Shown: positions 26,832 through 64,000, counted from the first letter of the stretch. The stretch: DNA of 64,000 bases from Candidatus Hydrogenedentota bacterium (GCA_029556545.1 JAKQEQ010000159.1:29814-93813); one strand, 5' to 3'. Numbers and translations are program-made. Notes: generated by a model not told the origin, from the letters alone.

Positions 26832-26858
26832 GTCCATCCCGTCCATTCAGTCCATTCC
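26832..26858. repeat. 9-bp GTCCAT-type repeat, 3 units, overlapping the GT39 stop codon
   Basis: Units at 26832, 26841 and 26850. The stop codon of the minus-strand glycosyltransferase (26847-26849) is inside the repeat, so the last Met-Asp residues of that protein are repeat-encoded. Confidence 0.85.
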
Positions 26859-28715
26859 CGGTCCCAGCAGCCGCCGACCGGAGTCGTTCGCCAGAAGCAA
26901 CACTTCGCGGCGGCCCACGCCCTGATGCCGCACCACGTGATATGGCGGAACCGTGGTGAAGAGCGGCAACAACCAGCGCCAATCCTCTTCCTGCACAAAC
27001 ACGAATACCGGCTCGGGCACGGCGAACAAGGCCGCGAACGCATCCACCTCGGCGATGAGATCATGCTCGAACGCGCGCAGACCCTGGACCTCCTCGTCGG
27101 CGTCGTCCACCGCGTCCTCGATGGCCCGCCACAACGCCTCGCGCTCCGCCTCCGTTACCGCGGCGATATCCGCAATCGCCACGTCGGCCACTGCCTCCGC
27201 GATGAGTTTGCGCGCGCGCTTCTGGGCGTCCGCCACCGCCATGAGTTCGTCCATATCCGTCGGGACTTCGCCGATGAGGCTGGCGAACGCCTCGGTGTGA
27301 GGCCGCCGGCTGTAGTAGACATATTCCTCGCGCGAGAATCCGACGGAGTACAGACGAAACGCCGCGCCCTGCTCCGCGAGTATGCGGACCGGCTCGCAGA
27401 AGGAACGCGCCGACTTCAGGGTGTTCACTAACGGGAAGACCGCCCAGACCGCCGCAAGCGCCAGCGCCGCGAAGGTCGCCGCGAAAACCACGTGCAGCCG
27501 CGCCATCCGGGTGAAGAGGCTCAGGCCCAGCGCCGCCGCGCCGCACGCCCCCGCAAGCACGGCGAATTCGAGCAGGGGTTCGTTCGCAAAATGACTGTAC
27601 TCGGTAAAACGCAGGATCAGCGGCCCCGCCGCCACCACAAGCAATATCAGTCCCCACGCCGCGCCCATCCACCGCCGCCACCGCGCCGGCCCACGGTCCG
27701 CAAGGTCAAGCGCGGCCACGGCCAGCAACACGGCGACCAGGGGAAACAGCGGCAGGATATACACCGCGCGCTTGCCGACCGAGATCGAGAAGAACACGAG
27801 GGCGGGCGCCGTGCCGCACCAGAGAAAGCGCATGGCCTTGTCCGCGCCGCGCCGCCGCCAAATCCAAGGCGCGGCCCACGGCAGCAGCAGCGTCCACGGC
27901 AGCAGGTCGACGGGAATCGTGGTCGCGTAATACCACGGCGGCTGCGCCTTGCTCACCCCGAGAAAAAGACGGCCGACGATGTTCCGGAACAGGTTTCCGC
28001 CCATGCCCGAGGTCACGGCTTGCTCCGCGGTCTCGGCGGCGAGCATACGCGCCGGCACGTACCACGCCGCAACCGCAAGGAGGACGCACGCGGCCCCGAC
28101 GGCCCAGTGCGTGTGCCGCCGCGCGGCGCGGTTGCCCCAATAGAAACCGAATAGCAGCAGGAGCGGAAACACCAGCGCCACCGGCCCCTTCGCGTAGACG
28201 CCCGCCGCCGTGGCCGCGTAACACAACACCAGCCACCCGCCGCGCCGCGTCTCCTCCCATCGCCACAGCGCGTACAGGGCCGCCGTTACGCACGCGGTCA
28301 GCAGCATGTCGATCTGCCCCGTCCGCGCCTGCCACCAGAACCGCGCGCCCGTCATGAGAATTATCGCGGTCCAGAGCGCGGTTCGCGCGTCGAAGAGCCG
28401 CAGCGCGAGGAGATACGTCAGCAGCACCGTGGCCACGCCGCTGAGGACCGACGGCAACCGCGCGCTCCACTCGGTGACCTCGCCTTGCGGCCAGGAACAC
28501 AGCGCAATGGTCCAGAAGAGCAGCGGCGGTTTCTCGTAATACGGCGCGCCGTTTACGTATGGCGTAAGAAAGTCGCCCCGCTCCCCCATCTCGCGCGCCA
28601 CCTGCGCATACCGCGGCTCGTCCGGCGGCCACAGGTCGTACCCGCCAATGCCATAGCCGAACAACGCAAGGGCGGCGAGCGTCAGCAGGCACAGGTGACG
28701 CGTAGTGGCGGTCAT
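26847..28715 (-). CDS. ArnT-like glycosyltransferase family 39 membrane protein
   Basis: Predicted 622-residue polytopic inner-membrane glycosyltransferase that moves a sugar from a polyprenyl-phosphate donor to a lipid or protein on the periplasmic side. The first periplasmic loop has DLWPPDEPRYAQVAREM with the catalytic DE pair of the PMT/ArnT superfamily, and YYEKPPLLFW follows, as in ArnT. About 11 membrane segments precede a soluble C-terminal domain of about 170 residues. It lies in the same minus-strand run as a secreted protein, a LAB_N-like protein and a GT2. The C-terminal end is formed by a 9-bp repeat. The acceptor is unknown. Confidence 0.88.
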   Translation of the reverse strand: MTATTRHLCLLTLAALALFGYGIGGYDLWPPDEPRYAQVAREMGERGDFLTPYVNGAPYYEKPPLLFWTIALCSWPQGEVTEWSARLPSVLSGVATVLLTYLLALRLFDARTALWTAIILMTGARFWWQARTGQIDMLLTACVTAALYALWRWEETRRGGWLVLCYAATAAGVYAKGPVALVFPLLLLFGFYWGNRAARRHTHWAVGAACVLLAVAAWYVPARMLAAETAEQAVTSGMGGNLFRNIVGRLFLGVSKAQPPWYYATTIPVDLLPWTLLLPWAAPWIWRRRGADKAMRFLWCGTAPALVFFSISVGKRAVYILPLFPLVAVLLAVAALDLADRGPARWRRWMGAAWGLILLVVAAGPLILRFTEYSHFANEPLLEFAVLAGACGAAALGLSLFTRMARLHVVFAATFAALALAAVWAVFPLVNTLKSARSFCEPVRILAEQGAAFRLYSVGFSREEYVYYSRRPHTEAFASLIGEVPTDMDELMAVADAQKRARKLIAEAVADVAIADIAAVTEAEREALWRAIEDAVDDADEEVQGLRAFEHDLIAEVDAFAALFAVPEPVFVFVQEEDWRWLLPLFTTVPPYHVVRHQGVGRREVLLLANDSGRRLLGPGMD

Positions 28716-28755
28716 GAGGCCCCTCCCGTCTTCTCCCGTTGACCCATTCCCCGGT

Positions 28756-29802
28756 TCACGCCGGCGTCGGCGCCGACGCCAGGCGATCGAGGAGGGCCTT
28801 CACGTCGTCGCGATTGGACAACGGCAGTTCCGCGTATATGCGTTCGAGATAGGCGCGCGCGGTCTCGCGCAACTCGGGCGCGCGTCCGCTGTTGGCGTCG
28901 GCGTATCCGGCAAGCGTCCGGGCAAAGCCCAGCCATTGGGCGTCGTGGTCCCGAAGGAGTCTGCCCACGTCGCCTTTCGGTTGCGGCGCACCCTCCGCAA
29001 ACAGGACCTCCGGACGCAAGACTTCACCCCGCGCTTCAGCGAAGGCTGCCACCGCCGAGTCCTTCTTCAGCACGTGGGCGTAGGCCCTGGTGAGGAAGTG
29101 AAAATACGCCTCGATGGCTGCGCACTGGACCCGCGGCTTCTCGGCCGCGTGTTCAACAATGCCCCCCAAGTATTTGCGCAGTTCTTCCGAGTTGTGCGCC
29201 AAGGCGTCCTGAAAATACAGTGCAAAGAGCGACGGACGCATCGTCCCCGGCACGCTGCAACGCAACAGATACAGCCGCAGTTCGTCCTCCTCGTTCGGTT
29301 CCGCCAGCGCGTACAACAACGGTTTCAGGTCCCGGTCGTCCACCGCTATTAGCGGATAATATTCGAGAGCTGTCACGATGTTCCGCCGAATCTGCAAAGT
29401 CACCTCCTCCGGCGACTTGCCCCACGTCGCCGCGCGCGCCTCGGCGATGCCCTCGCGCACCGCTCGCAGCAGGTCGCGGCCGCGCAGGTGTTGAATGTTC
29501 TCAAACGGGTACATCTTACGCGGTACATAGCGCCCGCCCGGGCGCGCGGTCAGGACAGACCGACGCAGCGACTCGTTCTGGAGGATTTCATTGAGGTGCG
29601 TCCAGTAATTGAGAATGATGCGCTCCTCCGACGACGTCGCGGGCGGCGGCGCCACCGGCGGCGCTTGCCGCGCGGGACCCGCGAACGGACTGGACGGCGG
29701 CGGCGCGAAGGCGCTCGGCGGCGGCTTGGCCGGATCCGGGACCTCCGCCGCGACGGACAACGCCAGTGCGCACAAGACGACAGCAATTCGCGCAATATGC
29801 AT
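28756..29802 (-). CDS. Secreted protein of unknown function (348 aa)
   Basis: The ATG at 29802 follows GGAAGAAGGG and gives a signal peptide MHIARIAVVLCALALSVAAE. A Pro/Ala-rich stretch of about 40 residues follows, then an alpha-helical domain (RIILNYWTHLNEILQNESLR, ALEYYPLIAVDDRDLKPLLY, HFLTRAYAHVLKKDSAVAAF). It may form a helical-repeat fold. No family recognised. It is between the LAB_N-like gene (123 bp upstream) and the GT39 gene (40 bp downstream) on the same strand. Confidence 0.7.
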   Translation of the reverse strand: MHIARIAVVLCALALSVAAEVPDPAKPPPSAFAPPPSSPFAGPARQAPPVAPPPATSSEERIILNYWTHLNEILQNESLRRSVLTARPGGRYVPRKMYPFENIQHLRGRDLLRAVREGIAEARAATWGKSPEEVTLQIRRNIVTALEYYPLIAVDDRDLKPLLYALAEPNEEDELRLYLLRCSVPGTMRPSLFALYFQDALAHNSEELRKYLGGIVEHAAEKPRVQCAAIEAYFHFLTRAYAHVLKKDSAVAAFAEARGEVLRPEVLFAEGAPQPKGDVGRLLRDHDAQWLGFARTLAGYADANSGRAPELRETARAYLERIYAELPLSNRDDVKALLDRLASAPTPA

Positions 29803-29925
29803 GACTCGAAACCCTTCTTCCTTGTTTCGCTCCCGCGCCGCCGTCAAGGCGCGACCGGACCTTATTCTAACGGATAGGCGGCACGACCGGATAACAGCGG
29901 CGCGAACGCGATCACGGGCGCCGCG

Positions 29926-30618
29926 TCAAATCGGGTCCGCATCCGCGGCCGTATCGCCGTACCGGCGAATCAGCCAGATGTTCCGAAGATACACGAGCAG
30001 CGTCGAGGCAGCCCCCGCCATGAATATCCATTCTCGCCGCTGCAGGTGCGACGCCGCCACGAGCACCGCCGCCGCCACGCTCAAGTACCAGAACGCGAGC
30101 GGCACCACGCTTTTTCGCCGCCGTTCCGTCGCCACCCACTGAACCAGAAACCGGCACGCGAACAATCCCTGGCCCGCCGCGCCCACGCCAATCCAGAACC
30201 AGTTCGCCGCCGCCGTCCCCGTCGCCTTCGTCGCGTGGTACTCCCGCAGCCACGTGTGCGCCGCCAGCACGAGCGCGCCGACGACAATTACCGCGACCGC
30301 GCCGTGCACCACCACGTAGAGCACCCGCGTCAGCGCGCCCCGCTCCCGCCAGATGTGCACCAGGTTCCGCGCGTACACCACAATGTTGAAACAATGACTC
30401 AACGCCCCGATCGGCGATCGAATGTGCGCGGCGTACCCGAGCAACAGGAGCGACCCCACGCTGCTCATGTACCAGAACGCAATCGGCACCACGCTCCGCT
30501 TGCGGATTTCGGAGACGATCCACTGCAGATAGAAGCGACCGTAGAAGATACACGCCGCAACGATGCCAACCAGTTCCCACAACCGCGGCCCGAACGGCCC
30601 TGCAAGCCAGTCACTCAC
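29926..30618 (-). CDS. LAB_N-domain membrane protein, internally duplicated
   Basis: Predicted 230-residue polytopic membrane protein. Two homologous segments are visible: FYGRFYLQWIVSEIRKRSVV with PIAFWYMSSVGSLLLLGYAA, and RFLVQWVATERRRKSVVP with LAFWYLSVAAAVLVAASH. Both match the lipid-A-disaccharide-synthase N-terminal (LAB_N) family. The start is GTG at 30618, inside the upstream GT2 gene (8-bp overlap), with AGGAGG before it, so translation is coupled to the GT2. In known genomes such proteins are encoded with ArnC/ArnT-like enzymes, and transport of a lipid-linked sugar has been proposed by analogy to ArnE/F; that function is inference. Confidence 0.85.
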   Translation of the reverse strand: MSDWLAGPFGPRLWELVGIVAACIFYGRFYLQWIVSEIRKRSVVPIAFWYMSSVGSLLLLGYAAHIRSPIGALSHCFNIVVYARNLVHIWRERGALTRVLYVVVHGAVAVIVVGALVLAAHTWLREYHATKATGTAAANWFWIGVGAAGQGLFACRFLVQWVATERRRKSVVPLAFWYLSVAAAVLVAASHLQRREWIFMAGAASTLLVYLRNIWLIRRYGDTAADADPI

Positions 30619-31360
30619 GCGCCGCCTCCTCTTCCACCGCGGGAACAACGAAACGGCGGCGAAGCCACCGCACGCCGACAAGGTCGTATAGGCCGCGCCA
30701 GAGACGATTCCCGATGCCGTACTTTGACACGCCGAACTGCCGCGCGTGATGCGTCACCGGCGTCTCCGCCAGACGCAGCGCCGCCGCGCGGATAAATACC
30801 GCTACAAAACGGTGCAAGCCGTTGAACGGCGGCAGATACGCCACGCACGCGCGCCGGAACCCCTTCGCGCCGCAACCCGAGTCCCGCACCCCGTCCCGCA
30901 GCACCCAATCGCGCACCCTGTTCGCCACCTTGCTTGAAACCTTCCGCACCAGAGAATCATGCCGATCCGCCCGGTAGCCGCAGACGCAGTCGTACTCGCC
31001 AAGCAGCTCCAGGAAGCGGGGAAAGTCCGCAGGGTCATTCTGCAGGTCCCCGTCAATGGTGAGGATGTAATCGCCGCGACTCCGCGTCATCCCCGCGTAC
31101 AACGCCGCCGACTGCCCCTGATTCCGCGCGAGGTGCACCGCCCGTACCGCCGGATGCGCCGACGCGAGCCCGTCAATCGCCGCCCGCGTCCCGTCCGTGC
31201 TGCCGTCGTTCACCAGCAGCACCTCATGGGCGTAGCCCGGTAGACACGCGAAAACCGCGGCTATCTGTTCATACAGCCGCGCAACGTTTTCCTCTTCATT
31301 GAATAGAGGCACTACCACCGACACGAGTGGCGTATGGGTGTCAAGGTTCCCGTCCGACAT
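30611..31360 (-). CDS. Glycosyltransferase family 2 (polyprenyl-phosphate sugar transferase-like)
   Basis: Predicted 249-residue cytoplasmic transferase of the DPM/ArnC/GtrB type. Visible motifs: [50 protein letters not shown] (nucleotide-sugar and metal site) and [19 protein letters not shown]. Unlike ArnC or GtrB it has no C-terminal membrane segments. The chosen ATG at 31360 has no ribosome site, but a perfect TATAAT (31371-31376 on the minus strand) lies 10 bp upstream, suggesting a very short leader. It heads the glycan cassette and overlaps the LAB_N-like gene. Confidence 0.88.
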
Positions 31361-31637: not shown

Positions 31638-31667
31638 TTGACAAGACTTGGGGGGACATGCTATTAT
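31638..31667 (+). promoter_or_regulatory. groESL sigma-70 promoter
   Basis: Perfect TTGACA (31638-31643), 18-bp spacer, TATTAT (31662-31667). The -10 overlaps the left arm of the CIRCE operator, as expected for repressor-controlled heat-shock operons. Confidence 0.78.
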
Positions 31668-31690
31668 CACTCCTGCATGATGAGTGCTAA
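31664..31690 (+). promoter_or_regulatory. CIRCE operator (HrcA binding site)
   Basis: TTATCACTC, nine bases, GAGTGCTAA. This is the CIRCE consensus TTAGCACTC-N9-GAGTGCTAA with one mismatch in the left arm. HrcA repression of groESL is the known role of the element. No hrcA gene is in this window. Confidence 0.88.
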
Positions 31691-41261: not shown

Positions 41262-42203
41262 TCACCCCTTCCGCAGCAGTTCGTCAAAATAGGCGATGGT
41301 CGGCTTCAGCCCGTCCCGAAGCGGCACTGTGGGCTCCCAACCCAGCTTCTCCCGCGCGAGCGAGATATCCGGTTTCCGGCGCACGGGGTCGTTTGGCGGC
41401 AACGGCTTGAACTCGATCCGCGACTTCGACTCCGTCAGTTCGATGACCATCTCGGCCAGTTGCCGGATGGTGAACTCGCCGGGATTGCCCAGATTGACCG
41501 GCCCGGTGAAATCGTCGGTTTCCATCATGCGGACAAGCGCATCGACCAGGTCGCTGACGTAACAGAACGAACGTGTCTGGGCGCCGTCGCCGTAGATGGT
41601 GATCGGTTCGCCGCGCAGGGCCTGCACGATGAAATTGCTGACGACGCGGCCGTCGTTCACGAGCATGCGCGGGCCGTACGTGTTGAAGATGCGGACGATG
41701 CGGATGTCCACCTTGTTCTGCATGTAGTAATCGAAGAACAGCGCCTCGGCGACCCGTTTGCCCTCGTCATAGCACGAGCGCGGCCCGATGGGGTTCACGT
41801 TGCCCCAGTACGACTCGACCTGCGGATGCACCTGCGGGTCGCCGTATACCTCCGAGGTGGACGCCTGGAGTACGCGCGCCTTCACGCGCTTGGCCAGCCC
41901 GAGCATGTTCAGCGCGCCCATGACGTTCGTCTTGATCGTCTTGACCGGGTTGTACTGGTAATGCACGGGCGAGGCCGGGCAGGCCAGATTGTAGATGCGG
42001 TCCACTTCGAGCAGGATCGGATTGATCACGTCATGGCGGACCAACTCGAACTTCGGGTTCTGCAGCATGTGCGCAATGTTGTCCTTGCGCCCGGTGAAGA
42101 AATTGTCCAGGCACAACACTTCCTGCCCCTTGGCGAGCAACGCTTCGCACAGGTGCGACCCGATAAACCCCGCGCCGCCGGTGACCAGATTAACGATTGC
42201 CAC
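41262..42203 (-). CDS. UDP-glucuronate decarboxylase-like SDR (UDP-xylose synthase type)
   Basis: Predicted 313-residue NAD-dependent nucleotide-sugar enzyme. [20 protein letters not shown] is the Rossmann dinucleotide site. The catalytic Y-x3-K is in [17 protein letters not shown], and STSEVYGDP carries the third catalytic residue. [13 protein letters not shown] and the [10 protein letters not shown] segment are typical of UXS-type decarboxylases making UDP-xylose. It precedes no epimerase partners here, but the 27-bp upstream neighbour is a nucleotidyltransferase for another sugar acid, so the pair may feed surface polysaccharide synthesis. Confidence 0.9.
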
Positions 42204-45365: not shown

Positions 45366-49310
<3,945 letters not shown>

Positions 49311-59455: not shown

Positions 59456-61462
59456 TTACCGGTGTTCAACGTTCATAAGTATAGGGGCAGTGCGCCATCT
59501 TGCCTCATCGCCCCAGCGCTTGTGATTGCCGTCCGGGCTGTCCAGGGGCGCATCCCCATAGATTACACGAATGATAATCGCCATAAAAAATACAGCGCAG
59601 ACAATTACGGGAAACGCCCGCAGCCAGAGCCGCAGCAGCAGGCTGCTGTAGGACAATGGCTCTATCGGATAGAATTTTCGTGAGGAGCGGGGAAGGGCAA
59701 TAATCAAAAAGGTCGCAAGAGCAGCATTCATGATGATCACCCACTCGGTCACGAGGCGGCTTGCGTCAAATCCCGGCAAGGCACGTTCAAAATTCGCGAT
59801 GACCATAATCCACAGAAACGCCAGATAAAACACCTGGCTCCGTGCGCGCCAGGAAGTCGGCACAATCGGCAGCGGCCGCCGCAGGTGCAACAACATCAGT
59901 GCGATGACAGAGGTTGCCAACGCTGCCCAGGCAAAAAGAAACCAGATTTCCGCGGGAAATTCAATGGAGGAAAACAGCGGCGCTTTCATCATCGCCGGGA
60001 CAACCTTGTTGCTGCCTTGTGTCCATTCACCCACATTCTTGAAGACATTCATCAAAGTTACAAAAAACAGGACAAAAATAACCCCGAACATCTCGGCGCC
60101 CCTGTGGCGCTTCCCCTGATCGTCGTGGGGTTTTACCATGCCTGCCAGCATGCCAAGCGCAATTGCCAGCGCAATGCCATGCCCAAACCCGTGCAGTTGT
60201 TCCATAATGCTGTGCCAGTTTGCATTTTGATAATGTGCCCAAGCCTCCGGCATGCCCCCCGGTGTCCGGTATGGATGACCCGGTATGCGAAGCAATGCGC
60301 GCAAAAAGGGCACTGCAATGAAGAAGAAGCCACCCACAAGCCCCGTAACAGAACCGGAAAAAGCGGCGCCGCCGAGTCCATAGCGCAGGCAATAGACCAT
60401 GCCTGCAATAAACACGCCTGTAATGCCTGCCCAGTCATCGCTGCGCGGCGGAGTCATGCGAAAGCCGCCGATAGATTGCAATGGTATGGAGCCAAGGGTT
60501 GGCATAAGAATAAACGCCAGCAGCCAACCGCACGCAAGATACAAAATCAGTTTTGAATCGCGCCGGAATGTACCGTAACGCCAAAAATAAATGCCGCCGC
60601 CAGCAAAAAGTCCCGATAGCCATCCCAAATGTTCAGGATAATAATGTACAAAATTTGGCCAGTTTGACAGGAACGTCACATTGCCGAAAGGTTCGCCGGT
60701 TACAGGGTTTATAGCATTGGAATCACCCAGGGGAATCACCAGCGCGTTGGCAATGTGCTGGTGCAGGCCCAGCAGCCCTGTCAGGTGATATGCCGCCGCG
60801 CCCGCCGCAGCGCCCAGACCGCAGTACACCAAAAGACGCCATGCGCCTGAGAAGCGGCGATCCCATAAATCAAACAAACATACGCCAAGCAGTGCCATCA
60901 ACGCCGGAAACCAGTCGGCATCGAACCAATAAAGCGGATTGTGATGCCGATGCCAGGTAGTATCCATTTTGTCAGCGTCCGGTATCACCAGCGTTTCTGA
61001 AAGCCAGGGCTCAAAAAAGAGCGCGCTGGCAGCCATGATAATCAAGACAAATGCAACAGGCACGCAAAAACTGTTCATCCGCTTCCGTTCCATCACCGCC
61101 GGAAGCGCCGCACCCATGCCGCCAATCCCTGCCCAGAGCAGTCCTTCCCAGAAGGTGGTCAAAAAACCGTAGATGCAGGTGCTCCATTGTTCCGAGCCCG
61201 CAAAGGAAATGGGATACATGTAGGAGATGGAGCCGCCAAAACCAAACCCGAGCCCGCCGAAAAGCGCGAAAAAAGCAACCCTGCGCCGCCAGTCCGACCT
61301 GCCGGACATGAGACATGCGGCAATGGATGCCAATACCCCCGCAATCATTGCTCCTGATTCATGCCCGAAGTTGCCGCGTATGCCCCAGCCGATGGAAAGG
61401 GAAAGCGCCACAATAAAAATAGCCCCCGGACGCAACCCCGGCAATCCTCGGAACCGCTCCAT
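59456..61462 (-). CDS. Polytopic membrane protein of unknown function (668 aa)
   Basis: Predicted inner-membrane protein with about 14 to 15 hydrophobic segments, for example FIVALSLSIGWGIRGNFGHE, SGAMIAGVLASIAACLM, FALFGGLGFGFGGSISYMYP and SLLLRLWLRAFPVIVCAVFF. Unusual conserved-looking loops include NPLYWFDADWFPALMALLG, GDSNAINPVTGEPFGNVTF and LSNWPNFVHYYPEHLG. No family was recognised. The ATG at 61462 has an excellent AAGGAGGAAG site and a promoter-like sequence 46 bp upstream. GC content is visibly lower than in the menB-side DNA. It could be co-transcribed with menB. Confidence 0.8.
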   Translation of the reverse strand: MERFRGLPGLRPGAIFIVALSLSIGWGIRGNFGHESGAMIAGVLASIAACLMSGRSDWRRRVAFFALFGGLGFGFGGSISYMYPISFAGSEQWSTCIYGFLTTFWEGLLWAGIGGMGAALPAVMERKRMNSFCVPVAFVLIIMAASALFFEPWLSETLVIPDADKMDTTWHRHHNPLYWFDADWFPALMALLGVCLFDLWDRRFSGAWRLLVYCGLGAAAGAAAYHLTGLLGLHQHIANALVIPLGDSNAINPVTGEPFGNVTFLSNWPNFVHYYPEHLGWLSGLFAGGGIYFWRYGTFRRDSKLILYLACGWLLAFILMPTLGSIPLQSIGGFRMTPPRSDDWAGITGVFIAGMVYCLRYGLGGAAFSGSVTGLVGGFFFIAVPFLRALLRIPGHPYRTPGGMPEAWAHYQNANWHSIMEQLHGFGHGIALAIALGMLAGMVKPHDDQGKRHRGAEMFGVIFVLFFVTLMNVFKNVGEWTQGSNKVVPAMMKAPLFSSIEFPAEIWFLFAWAALATSVIALMLLHLRRPLPIVPTSWRARSQVFYLAFLWIMVIANFERALPGFDASRLVTEWVIIMNAALATFLIIALPRSSRKFYPIEPLSYSSLLLRLWLRAFPVIVCAVFFMAIIIRVIYGDAPLDSPDGNHKRWGDEARWRTAPILMNVEHR

Positions 61463-61507
61463 TATTCTTCCTCCTTTTCATCATTTGAATCCGTGCAACG
61501 CAGCGCT

Positions 61508-61535
61508 TTTATATCTCGCACGATATTTTATCCAA
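61508..61535 (-). promoter_or_regulatory. Possible promoter of the 668-aa membrane protein gene
   Basis: On the minus strand TTGGAT (61535-61530), 16-bp spacer, TATAAA (61513-61508). It is the best match in an AT-rich 180-bp gap. Confidence 0.45.
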
Positions 61536-61635
61536 ATTTTATTACAGAACACTATAATGCCACACTTTGCTACCGGATTTCCCGTCCATGTGCATTTTGC
61601 AACGTGAAAGCCATGGTGACAACATGGTTGTTCAT

Positions 61636-61667
61636 AAAAAAAAGGGCAGATTGAGGAAATCTGCCCT
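61636..61667 (-). terminator. Rho-independent terminator of the 638-aa fusion gene
   Basis: Perfect 10-bp stem AGGGCAGATT/AATCTGCCCT (61658-61667 with 61643-61652), 5-base loop, then seven T on the minus strand (61642-61636). It begins 24 bp after the stop codon. Confidence 0.9.
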
Positions 61668-61690
61668 AAATCCATGTTACCTTCTGCCTG

Positions 61691-63607
61691 TCAGGTCTGT
61701 CCATCGGCCGCAGGTGCAGAGGCTTTCACCTTGAGTTCTTTCTCCAGTTTCGCGCCTTCTTTCAGTTTGACGATAGATGCCAGGCTGTATTCATCTTCCA
61801 CAGCGGTAATTTCAATACGACCGACCGTATTCTGGCGGTGTGCAATAACACGTCCGCCCACTTCGATAGGTTCGCCTTCGGTGAAAACGTCAAAACGCTG
61901 TCCCAGCGCCACACCATGTTTGGCGCCTATGTTAATCATGACAACGCCGTCGTCAGTAACATCCGCAACCAGTCCCTTTAGTTCCTGGCTGTCTGCGGTT
62001 TCCGCAAGGACGCGTTCCACAACCGCCTGTGACACATCAGTGAGTTTGTTGATGTTTACCGGTTGCGACACCTGCATGGCCAGCGCCGTGGTTTCGGTAT
62101 CCACCAGCCGCAGGTACATGGTAAGGTCGGCGCCCACCTGCGCATAATCTATAAAACCGAGATACCGTGCGGATAATACGCGTCCCAGCACCTGCTGCGT
62201 GTTTGGATCGGCAAGTTCCGAGGAGCCCAGTTCCAGTTCCTGGAGCAATTGGTCAAGCATGGTGCGTTCCAGTACCTGAACGCGAGGGTCGTTCTGCAGG
62301 CGTGTTTCAATATCACGCTGCAATGCCACATCCGTACCGGCGCGTTCGAAAAACACCGTGCTCTTGCCGGGCAGCAGCGCCAGTGTAAGGGCGCGGGTGG
62401 ACCAGGCATCCTTCGGTTTATCAAGCCCAGCGGCCTTCAATTCCTTGAAACGCGCGGAGAGGGATTCAATCTGGGAGCGGATGAGTTCCTGCCGTTTCAG
62501 ATCGTTGGCTTCCTCTATTTCACCGCGTACTTGCTGCAGCAGCATGCTAATAAGGTTGTCGTCACTTATCTGTTGTGCCTGCACCAGCAGTTCCTGCGCC
62601 TCTTCGAGGTTGCCTTTTTCACGCTGTGCTGCTGCTTCGTTACTAAGCGGTTTGATGCCGTACGCATCTATTTCACGGGCTGCCTGATAATCGCTGATGG
62701 CGCCGTCAACGTCCCCCTGATGGTGCTTGATGCGGCCGCGGCTGTTTGCGGCTTCGGCGGCCTGCCAGGGACGTTCGGCCTGTTCTACGGGCACATCATT
62801 AATTGCAGCGGCGGCTTCGTCCACTTTGCCCAGGCGCGCCAGCGCTTCTGCCTTGATGGAGGCAGCATAGGGGTCGTTCCCTGCGAGGTCTGCCTCCTTG
62901 ATGGCTTGTTCAAAATCGCCCTTTTCCAGCGCCACTTTCGCAAGGCCTGTGTGGGATTCCAGACTACCAAACTCCTTTTCTGCCTCGTCGAGTTTGCCTT
63001 CACTGGCGAGAATAAATCCTTTCAACTCTTTTGCAGACGCATCATTGCCCTCGTTGATTGCCTGATCCACCGCCTCCAGCGCCATTTCCCGGCGCTGCCG
63101 GAAAAGAGATTCTGCGGTCTTGGTCAGCAGAGAGGAAATGGAAAGTCCATCGCCAGCAAGCACTTCGTCTATGCGGCGACTTTGTGTAGTCTCTACAAAC
63201 AGGGTGATGGGATACTGGCGCACCATTTCCAGCCAGTTACCCTCCTCCAGTTTGTTGGCATCTACAACGTGATACTCGATGCCAAGCCGTTCGGCAAATT
63301 CCTTCAGTTGCTCTTCATTCTGCTCTATGCCCAGTGCCACTACCTGAAACTTCTCGCGATACTGCATCTGAAGTACCTGCAGTTTTGCCGCCAGTTCCTC
63401 GCCTGTATTTGGCGCGAAACAGAACACCACCAGCAGGTAGGGGTTCTGGGCGATGATTTCATTCAGGTCAACATTTTCACCTGAAATATCCACAGCGCGG
63501 ATGTTCGGTGCAGGCGTGCCCCGCGTCAAATCTCCCAACGCAATTGTTCCTGTTAACAGCATGCTTGCTGCTATTGCGGCTGATGCCAATACGTTTTTCT
63601 TGTTCAC
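61691..63607 (-). CDS. Exported thioredoxin-fold / TPR / CsgG-like fusion protein (638 aa)
   Basis: Predicted periplasmic protein. The GTG at 63607 after GAGGGAAC opens a signal peptide (NVLASAAIAASMLLTGTIALG). Residues 25-150 are an AhpC/TSA-like thioredoxin fold (LTRGTPAPNIRAVDISGENV), but the redox CxxC is absent (VVFCFAPNTGEE), so it is probably not an oxidoreductase. A TPR region follows (LKGFILASEGKLDEAEKEFG, ALARLGKVDEAAAAIND). The C-terminal third resembles CsgG/LpoB-type proteins: VQVLERTMLDQLLQELELGS and VLGRVLSARYLGFIDY. A final strand-rich domain reads GVALGQRFDVFTEGEPIEVG. Flanked by its own promoter and terminator, it is a single-gene unit. Confidence 0.82.
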   Translation of the reverse strand: MNKKNVLASAAIAASMLLTGTIALGDLTRGTPAPNIRAVDISGENVDLNEIIAQNPYLLVVFCFAPNTGEELAAKLQVLQMQYREKFQVVALGIEQNEEQLKEFAERLGIEYHVVDANKLEEGNWLEMVRQYPITLFVETTQSRRIDEVLAGDGLSISSLLTKTAESLFRQRREMALEAVDQAINEGNDASAKELKGFILASEGKLDEAEKEFGSLESHTGLAKVALEKGDFEQAIKEADLAGNDPYAASIKAEALARLGKVDEAAAAINDVPVEQAERPWQAAEAANSRGRIKHHQGDVDGAISDYQAAREIDAYGIKPLSNEAAAQREKGNLEEAQELLVQAQQISDDNLISMLLQQVRGEIEEANDLKRQELIRSQIESLSARFKELKAAGLDKPKDAWSTRALTLALLPGKSTVFFERAGTDVALQRDIETRLQNDPRVQVLERTMLDQLLQELELGSSELADPNTQQVLGRVLSARYLGFIDYAQVGADLTMYLRLVDTETTALAMQVSQPVNINKLTDVSQAVVERVLAETADSQELKGLVADVTDDGVVMINIGAKHGVALGQRFDVFTEGEPIEVGGRVIAHRQNTVGRIEITAVEDEYSLASIVKLKEGAKLEKELKVKASAPAADGQT

Positions 63608-63693
63608 AATAGTTCCCTCGCATTCCTTGTTCCGGAGTTTCAAATAGCCGGAAGGTTGCAAAAACCCATTACAAAATCTTCAACAACAAAAAC

Positions 63694-63723
63694 ATTATAA
63701 CACCAAACCCCACTCCATGTGAA
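63694..63723 (-). promoter_or_regulatory. Sigma-70-type promoter of the 638-aa fusion gene
   Basis: On the minus strand TTCACA (63723-63718), 18-bp spacer, perfect TATAAT (63699-63694). The predicted leader is about 80 bases. Confidence 0.58.
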
Positions 63724-63851
63724 TAGGGGCAGGAAAAAAATCCGGGGATATTTTCATGAAGTCATTAACCTAAAAAGAGCAGTTCATCGATCCGTCATTG
63801 CGAGCATATCACCCCACGGTTCGGGGTTTTTCTTGAAAGAACTATTTGCAA

Positions 63852-63941
63852 CCTGGGAACGCCGACGTCCTCGTCGGCTGGGTTACGGACGATAGCGCAA
63901 GGAGCCGCGAGCATGCCGACGGGGACGTCGGCGTTCCCAGG
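63852..63941. repeat. Long inverted repeat, MITE/REP-like
   Basis: Arms of 27 bp (63852-63878 and 63915-63941) match with one mismatch; each starts or ends with CCTGGGAACGCCGACGTCC. The loop is 36 bp. The element has high GC in an AT-rich setting. Confidence 0.8.
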
Positions 63942-64000
63942 ATAGCGATGCGATGGCATATACATGTTCTTAAAAAAACAACATACAAACGTCTAAATGT

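Follow-up and report, generated by a model that had tools for sequence, protein, structure and literature searches.

A GT2, tandem LAB_N and GT39 gene run in Candidatus Hydrogenedentota as a candidate lipid-linked-sugar glycosylation system with LAB_N as its possible carrier

In the Arn system, which modifies lipid A with 4-amino-4-deoxy-L-arabinose (L-Ara4N), the family 2 glycosyltransferase (GT2) ArnC loads undecaprenyl phosphate, the SMR-family ArnE/F flips the product, and ArnT transfers the sugar. The GtrA-GtrB-Gtr and CsbB-GtcA-YfhO systems combine a cytosolic-face GT2, a small putative flippase of the C55-phosphate-linked sugar (C55-P-sugar) and an extracytoplasmic transferase (PMC7389260), and a relationship of GtrA (TCDB LST family) to SWEETs has been proposed (PMC7176098). 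Here we describe a run of four genes on the minus strand of a 64,000-nucleotide stretch of DNA (the window) from a 6.1-Mb metagenome-assembled genome of Candidatus Hydrogenedentota (GCA_029556545.1, JAKQEQ010000159.1:29814-93813). The run encodes a GT2, a membrane protein with two LAB_N domains (PF07578), a secreted protein (SEC) and a GT39 transferase. We narrowly favour the reading that it forms a polyprenyl-phosphate-monosaccharide glycosylation system of three components and a lineage-specific fourth, in which flipping would be carried out by LAB_N. This type of pathway is already known; what is probably new is LAB_N as the candidate carrier.

The GT2 gene (30611..31360; ATG at 31360, stop codon ending at 30611) encodes an ArnC/DPM1-like protein of 249 amino acids (Glycos_transf_2, 1.1e-28), and its stop overlaps by 8 bp (GTGAGTGA) the start of the LAB_N gene (29926..30618; GTG at 30618), the 230-residue product of which carries the two PF07578 domains (146 bits). 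The SEC gene (28756..29802; ATG at 29802; 348 amino acids, with an N-terminal hydrophobic signal-like segment) follows after 123 bp and, after another 40 bp, the gene for the ArnT/PMT-like, periplasmic-side sugar transferase GT39 (26847..28715; 622 amino acids; PMT_2, 6e-19). A scan of the run found terminator-like sites in numbers not above those of shuffled sequence. The profile matches and coordinates agree with a sequence-only reading of this DNA, which had reported the four genes and the 8-bp overlap and had likened the run to the Arn pathway. The grouping exceeds chance, because the genes are linked again in other Hydrogenedentota families, and GT2-LAB_N-GT39 in other phyla.

The nearest PDB relative of the GT2 was ArnC (1.4e-33), with residues 12-229 of 249 aligned; ArnC has 322 residues and continues beyond the end of this alignment, so the GT2 lacks the C-terminal membrane helices of ArnC, as the sequence-only reading had claimed. 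The sole PDB match of the GT39 was ArnT (5EZM/5F15, 2.8e-20), and the Asp-Glu motif of ArnT, also noted in the sequence-only reading, was found aligned to 5EZM. Because both proteins scored far under the cut-offs of the equivalog models (128 bits vs 529 for ArnC, 135 vs 567 for ArnT), they appear to be relatives of ArnC and ArnT rather than Arn orthologues. ArnA, ArnB and ArnD, which serve to make UDP-L-Ara4N, were not among the genes of the run, no dedicated test for them having been made. The cassette thus resembles the Arn system in its GT2, its GT39, the small membrane protein and the two-component regulator that adjoins some LAB_N cassettes, and differs from it in having LAB_N where Arn has ArnE/F, in a GT2 without membrane helices and in the additional SEC. 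With the GtrA/GtcA systems it shares a GT2 at the cytosolic face, a small membrane protein and an extracytoplasmic transferase, but here the transferase is a GT39, the GT2 is helix-less, and above cut-off the LAB_N protein matches PF07578 alone and not GtrA (PF04138), for which a genome-wide search was not made.

Helix loss is a general feature of the GT2s found with LAB_N. Among 62 GT2s scored at LAB_N loci (Hydrogenedentota, Verrucomicrobiota phylum and plasmids), 60 lacked a hydrophobic segment at the C-terminus; the remaining two, of which one was observed directly and one inferred, are different GT2s located some 4 kb away from LAB_N. All 20 unlinked Hydrogenedentota GT2 paralogues sampled had one or two C-terminal helices, a control that is strong but not exhaustive, because it was taken from higher-scoring matches and some weaker unlinked GT2s also have short frames. 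The C-terminal end of the helix-less GT2 carries a conserved amphipathic-looking motif. A profile of this C-terminus (A3), with helix-less GT2s called at a score of at least 65 bits and a match to the model end, splits them from longer GT2s; the invariant residues are, in A3 numbering, H1, R2, V20, H22, R25, G28, Y32, R37, D44, W50 and R54.

To follow the parts through the order, we searched 60 related Hydrogenedentota genomes. LAB_N was present in 56 of them and nearly always in tandem, which makes the duplication ancestral in the order; in a tree, the N-halves and the C-halves formed one clade each (support 0.99). A GT2 orthologue (at least 190 bits) was found in 47/56 genomes with LAB_N vs 0/4 without (Fisher 0.0015). 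GT2 adjoined LAB_N in 27 of the 61 LAB_N genes and GT39 in 18, and where LAB_N was not adjacent to GT2, a GT2 was usually located at another site of the same genome. The linked arrangements were GT2-LAB_N (12), GT2-LAB_N-GT39 (11), GT2-GT39 (7), LAB_N-SEC (6), LAB_N-GT39 (6), all four genes (4), SEC-GT39 (4) and LAB_N-SEC-GT39 (3), so that all six pairings among the four genes were seen linked, in permuted combinations. None of the 60 genomes had an ArnE match that passed the curated cut-off, and the genome of the window gave no match at all (ArnF was not searched). This agrees with the proposal that LAB_N stands in place of ArnE/F, of which the flipping itself is a step that we infer.

These counts changed two parts of the sequence-only reading, which had stressed the duplication as a mark of the cassette and had asked whether tandem LAB_N always pairs with GT2 and GT39. 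The former was rejected, since tandem LAB_N is near-universal in the order and other phyla have such cassettes with single-repeat LAB_N. Constant pairing did not hold in the survey: adjacency was frequent but not universal, and LAB_N genes with no GT2 or GT39 neighbour were common enough to count halfway against the association, which is rescued by genome-level co-occurrence. Strict operon conservation was therefore dropped as evidence and co-occurrence used instead. What stands of the Arn comparison is the logic of GT2, small membrane protein and GT39, together with ArnC and ArnT as closest PDB relatives. Separately, one 5-kb contig in this set (G001:C246; loci L035/L085) is probably misbinned, because 4.7 kb of it match a G050 contig with 99.98% identity.

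In a sample of the phylum Verrucomicrobiota, LAB_N was present in 44 of 241 genomes, in all but one with a single domain match. A helix-less GT2 was found in 44/44 genomes with LAB_N vs 28/197 without (Fisher 2e-29), and at 40 inspected loci GT2 directly adjoined LAB_N in about half, often with GT39 next. LAB_N never occurred without GT2 in this sample, and GT2 occurred without detectable LAB_N in 28 genomes, a one-way dependence that would be predicted for a LAB_N working on what the GT2 makes. One genome without detectable LAB_N (L294, 4181-4909) has a VTT/DedA-family gene that shares 16 bp with the gene of the helix-less GT2 and possibly replaces LAB_N there.

The cassette extends to Alphaproteobacteria, Gammaproteobacteria (Aeromonas), Fusobacteriota and Bacteroidota. 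Annotated plasmid records showed the order GT2-LAB_N-GT39 in Thalassospira, Azospirillum, Pelagovum (the GT39 of which is annotated as hypothetical and was recognised by profile) and Ilyobacter, and GT39 ahead of GT2 in Paracoccus. Aeromonas caviae has GT2-LAB_N-GT39, Phocaeicola has GT39-GT2-tandem LAB_N, and Paenibacillus has the GT2-LAB_N pair, with GT39 not detected. Single-repeat LAB_N is found in cassettes of other phyla, and genes for a response regulator and a histidine kinase adjoin several LAB_N loci (Thalassospira, Ilyobacter, Cetobacterium and Hymenobacter). Tandem LAB_N is also found in Hymenobacter (L178 and L244, 5965-6633), annotated as a single gene in Hymenobacter radiodurans and split over two neighbouring genes in Hymenobacter sp. 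HDW8; these loci have no GT2 nearby but do include a two-component system, a GT39 and an epimerase/dehydratase.

The AlphaFold2 model of the LAB_N protein (predicted local distance difference test score, pLDDT, 91.9; predicted template-modelling score, pTM, 0.87; alignment of 37 sequences) has seven helices (10-39, 46-65, 69-92, 98-130, 136-167, 174-193 and 197-220) in a 3+1+3 arrangement. Basic residues are somewhat commoner in those loops that an outside N-terminus would place in the cytoplasm, hinting weakly at that orientation. At 13 of 14 conserved positions the two repeats have the same residue (R, F, Q, W, E, S, P, F, W, S, Y, R and N), and the polar residues kept in both appear to exceed the needs of a bare anchor. 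Pfam places LAB_N in the MtN3-like clan, to which SWEET, PQ-loop, KDEL receptor and MPC proteins also belong (PMC4499210). The three-helix repeat and its 3+1+3 tandem are shared with SemiSWEET, SWEET and PQ-loop proteins, and hhalign matched LAB_N to a profile of five PQ-loop proteins over the whole repeat (Prob 81, 81 columns; reversed control 0.3), with the PQ-motif glutamine aligned to an invariant LAB_N glutamine. Unlike in SWEETs, the motifs RFxxQWxxSE and RN are specific to LAB_N, and the MtN3_slv model (PF03083) matched in none of the 60 Hydrogenedentota genomes.

From the identity, linkage and co-occurrence of the parts, the helix loss of the GT2 and the predicted topology of LAB_N, we infer a scheme of sugar, carrier, acceptor, flipping step and SEC role as follows. 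On the cytoplasmic side of the membrane, the GT2, without helices of its own, would use a nucleotide sugar to make a polyprenyl-phosphate-sugar. LAB_N, as a two-repeat, seven-helix PQ-loop relative, would take this product to the outer leaflet and is probably the flippase of the lipid-linked sugar, taking the part played by ArnE/F or GtrA in other systems. The GT39 would then pass the sugar to an extracytoplasmic acceptor, and SEC would be an accessory in the periplasm that perhaps serves as this acceptor or presents it. Charging by the GT2 and transfer by the GT39 can be proposed with good confidence.

We consider it less likely, though still a serious alternative, that LAB_N instead anchors or activates the helix-less GT2 while another protein flips, in the manner of DPM2/DPM3, which target DPM1 (PMC4281381), and of ArnC's own helices. 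Such a role would account for the missing helices of the 60 GT2s and their presence in all 20 sampled paralogues, for the conserved motif at the GT2 C-terminus, and for GT2-LAB_N being the tightest pair, with 27 linked cases and frequent overlaps of a few bases. The paralogue sample, however, favoured high scorers, a few lower-scoring unlinked GT2s being likewise short-framed. The helix-less GT2 is kept in the 28 Verrucomicrobiota-phylum genomes without detectable LAB_N, and LAB_N is therefore not needed as its sole anchor; anchoring also leaves unexplained the invariant polar residues repeated in both LAB_N halves. Because of these residues, and because LAB_N never occurs without GT2 in that sample while GT2 does occur alone, a flippase is preferred over a pure anchor.

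A distinctly less probable explanation is that LAB_N is a utilisation factor resembling MPDU1, which would present the lipid-phosphate-sugar to the transferase, or that it returns spent polyprenyl phosphate to the cytoplasmic side, in neither case exporting the charged lipid. The PQ-loop protein MPDU1 is required for the use of dolichol-phosphate-mannose and -glucose (PMC4281381, PMC3281891), and the PQ-loop profile match of LAB_N and its linkage to GT39 in 18 cases would fit such a function. Recycling draws on the VTT/DedA-family gene that overlaps GT2 in the Verrucomicrobiota genome without LAB_N, DedA proteins having been implicated in undecaprenyl phosphate recycling (PMC12826051); this is a single case, and the likeness to MPDU1 is by analogy of parts. 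Finally, it is very improbable that LAB_N works in lipid A biosynthesis, as its name suggests, with incidental glycosyltransferase neighbours, for although the N-terminal part of the NCBIfam LpxB-fusion model matches it and the genome encodes LpxC, the match spans model positions 13-215 of 610 with no LpxB catalytic domain attached, LAB_N tracks GT2 across genomes, and it adjoins GT2 in Paenibacillus, a Gram-positive without lipid A.

Several points weigh against the preferred assignment of flipping to LAB_N. A Foldseek search of the PDB with the LAB_N model gave no match at E<=0.001; SWEETs ranked 4-7 and 10, with E of 0.5-0.9 and a template-modelling score of about 0.3, and the structural likeness to SWEETs is unproved because the match is not significant. 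Helix loss of the GT2 beside LAB_N fits an anchor role equally well. Just over half of the Hydrogenedentota LAB_N genes lie away from GT2, no GT2 orthologue was found in nine LAB_N-containing Hydrogenedentota genomes, several of them fragmented assemblies, and the co-occurrence counts and Fisher tests ignore shared ancestry. The support comes from sequence and model.

A broader proposal can be put forward tentatively, and with less assurance than the pathway itself: LAB_N may represent one more class of flippases for lipid-linked monosaccharides in bacteria, which would belong to the SWEET/PQ-loop superfamily and be coupled obligately to a GT2 without helices. The cassette would then be a bacterial counterpart of DPM1-MPDU1-PMT, with which it shares a soluble GT2, a PQ-loop-type membrane protein and a GT39 transferase (PMC4281381, PMC3281891), a likeness by analogy of parts. 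Two independent duplications, in Hydrogenedentota and probably in Bacteroidota, would repeat the step from SemiSWEET to SWEET.

The 348-residue SEC protein, put forward as a new component by the sequence-only reading, proved real and conserved, and is a lineage-specific accessory known so far in Hydrogenedentota only. It was found in 34 of the 60 genomes and in no member of families f3 and f4, whose prevailing arrangement is GT2-LAB_N-GT39 alone. SEC was linked to LAB_N in 13 cases and to GT39 in 11, lying after LAB_N or before GT39 in 17 loci and otherwise solitary. Eight members had no Pfam match above curated cut-off, and the SEC of the window also had no NCBIfam match. Its predicted model is all-helical (pLDDT 82.8). 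A fold assignment was abandoned, the best Foldseek match (E 0.013) being a designed helical protein without significance; weak PDB sequence matches were likewise designed helical bundles and gave no family identity. Its roles as acceptor, chaperone or acceptor-presenting factor are guesses. One genome (G041, L231) has SEC where LAB_N and the GT2 and GT39 orthologues were not found, which may mean that SEC functions apart from the cassette or that this assembly is incomplete.

Upstream of the run, in divergent orientation, lie groES-groEL. A CIRCE element (31664-31690; one mismatch; 0/100 shuffles) is located between groESL and the GT2 gene, beside a groES promoter-like site. An epimerase/dehydratase gene (41262-42203) with weak similarity to ArnA is distant from the run. 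The G+C content falls to 0.53-0.54 at 46001-48000 and 60001-64000, below the remainder of the window. The same genome contains a second GT2-tandem LAB_N-GT39 module without SEC (L005; G000:C134, 5769-11983), on a 295-kb contig that may be misbinned, and a divergent histidine kinase and a CzcR/CopR-like response regulator adjoin it.

PF07578 proteins are routinely annotated as lipid-A-disaccharide synthase N-terminal domain proteins, and full-text searches by domain names found no literature on the role of the LAB_N/PF07578 domain beyond clan or annotation remarks. The coupling of GT2 and LAB_N makes the choice between flippase and anchor directly testable. If LAB_N moves lipid-linked sugars, the lipid A label of PF07578 would be corrected, and a missing step in many envelope glycosylation systems would gain a candidate. 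For the human disease gene MPDU1, whose role is unexplained, the cassette would also offer a simple bacterial model.

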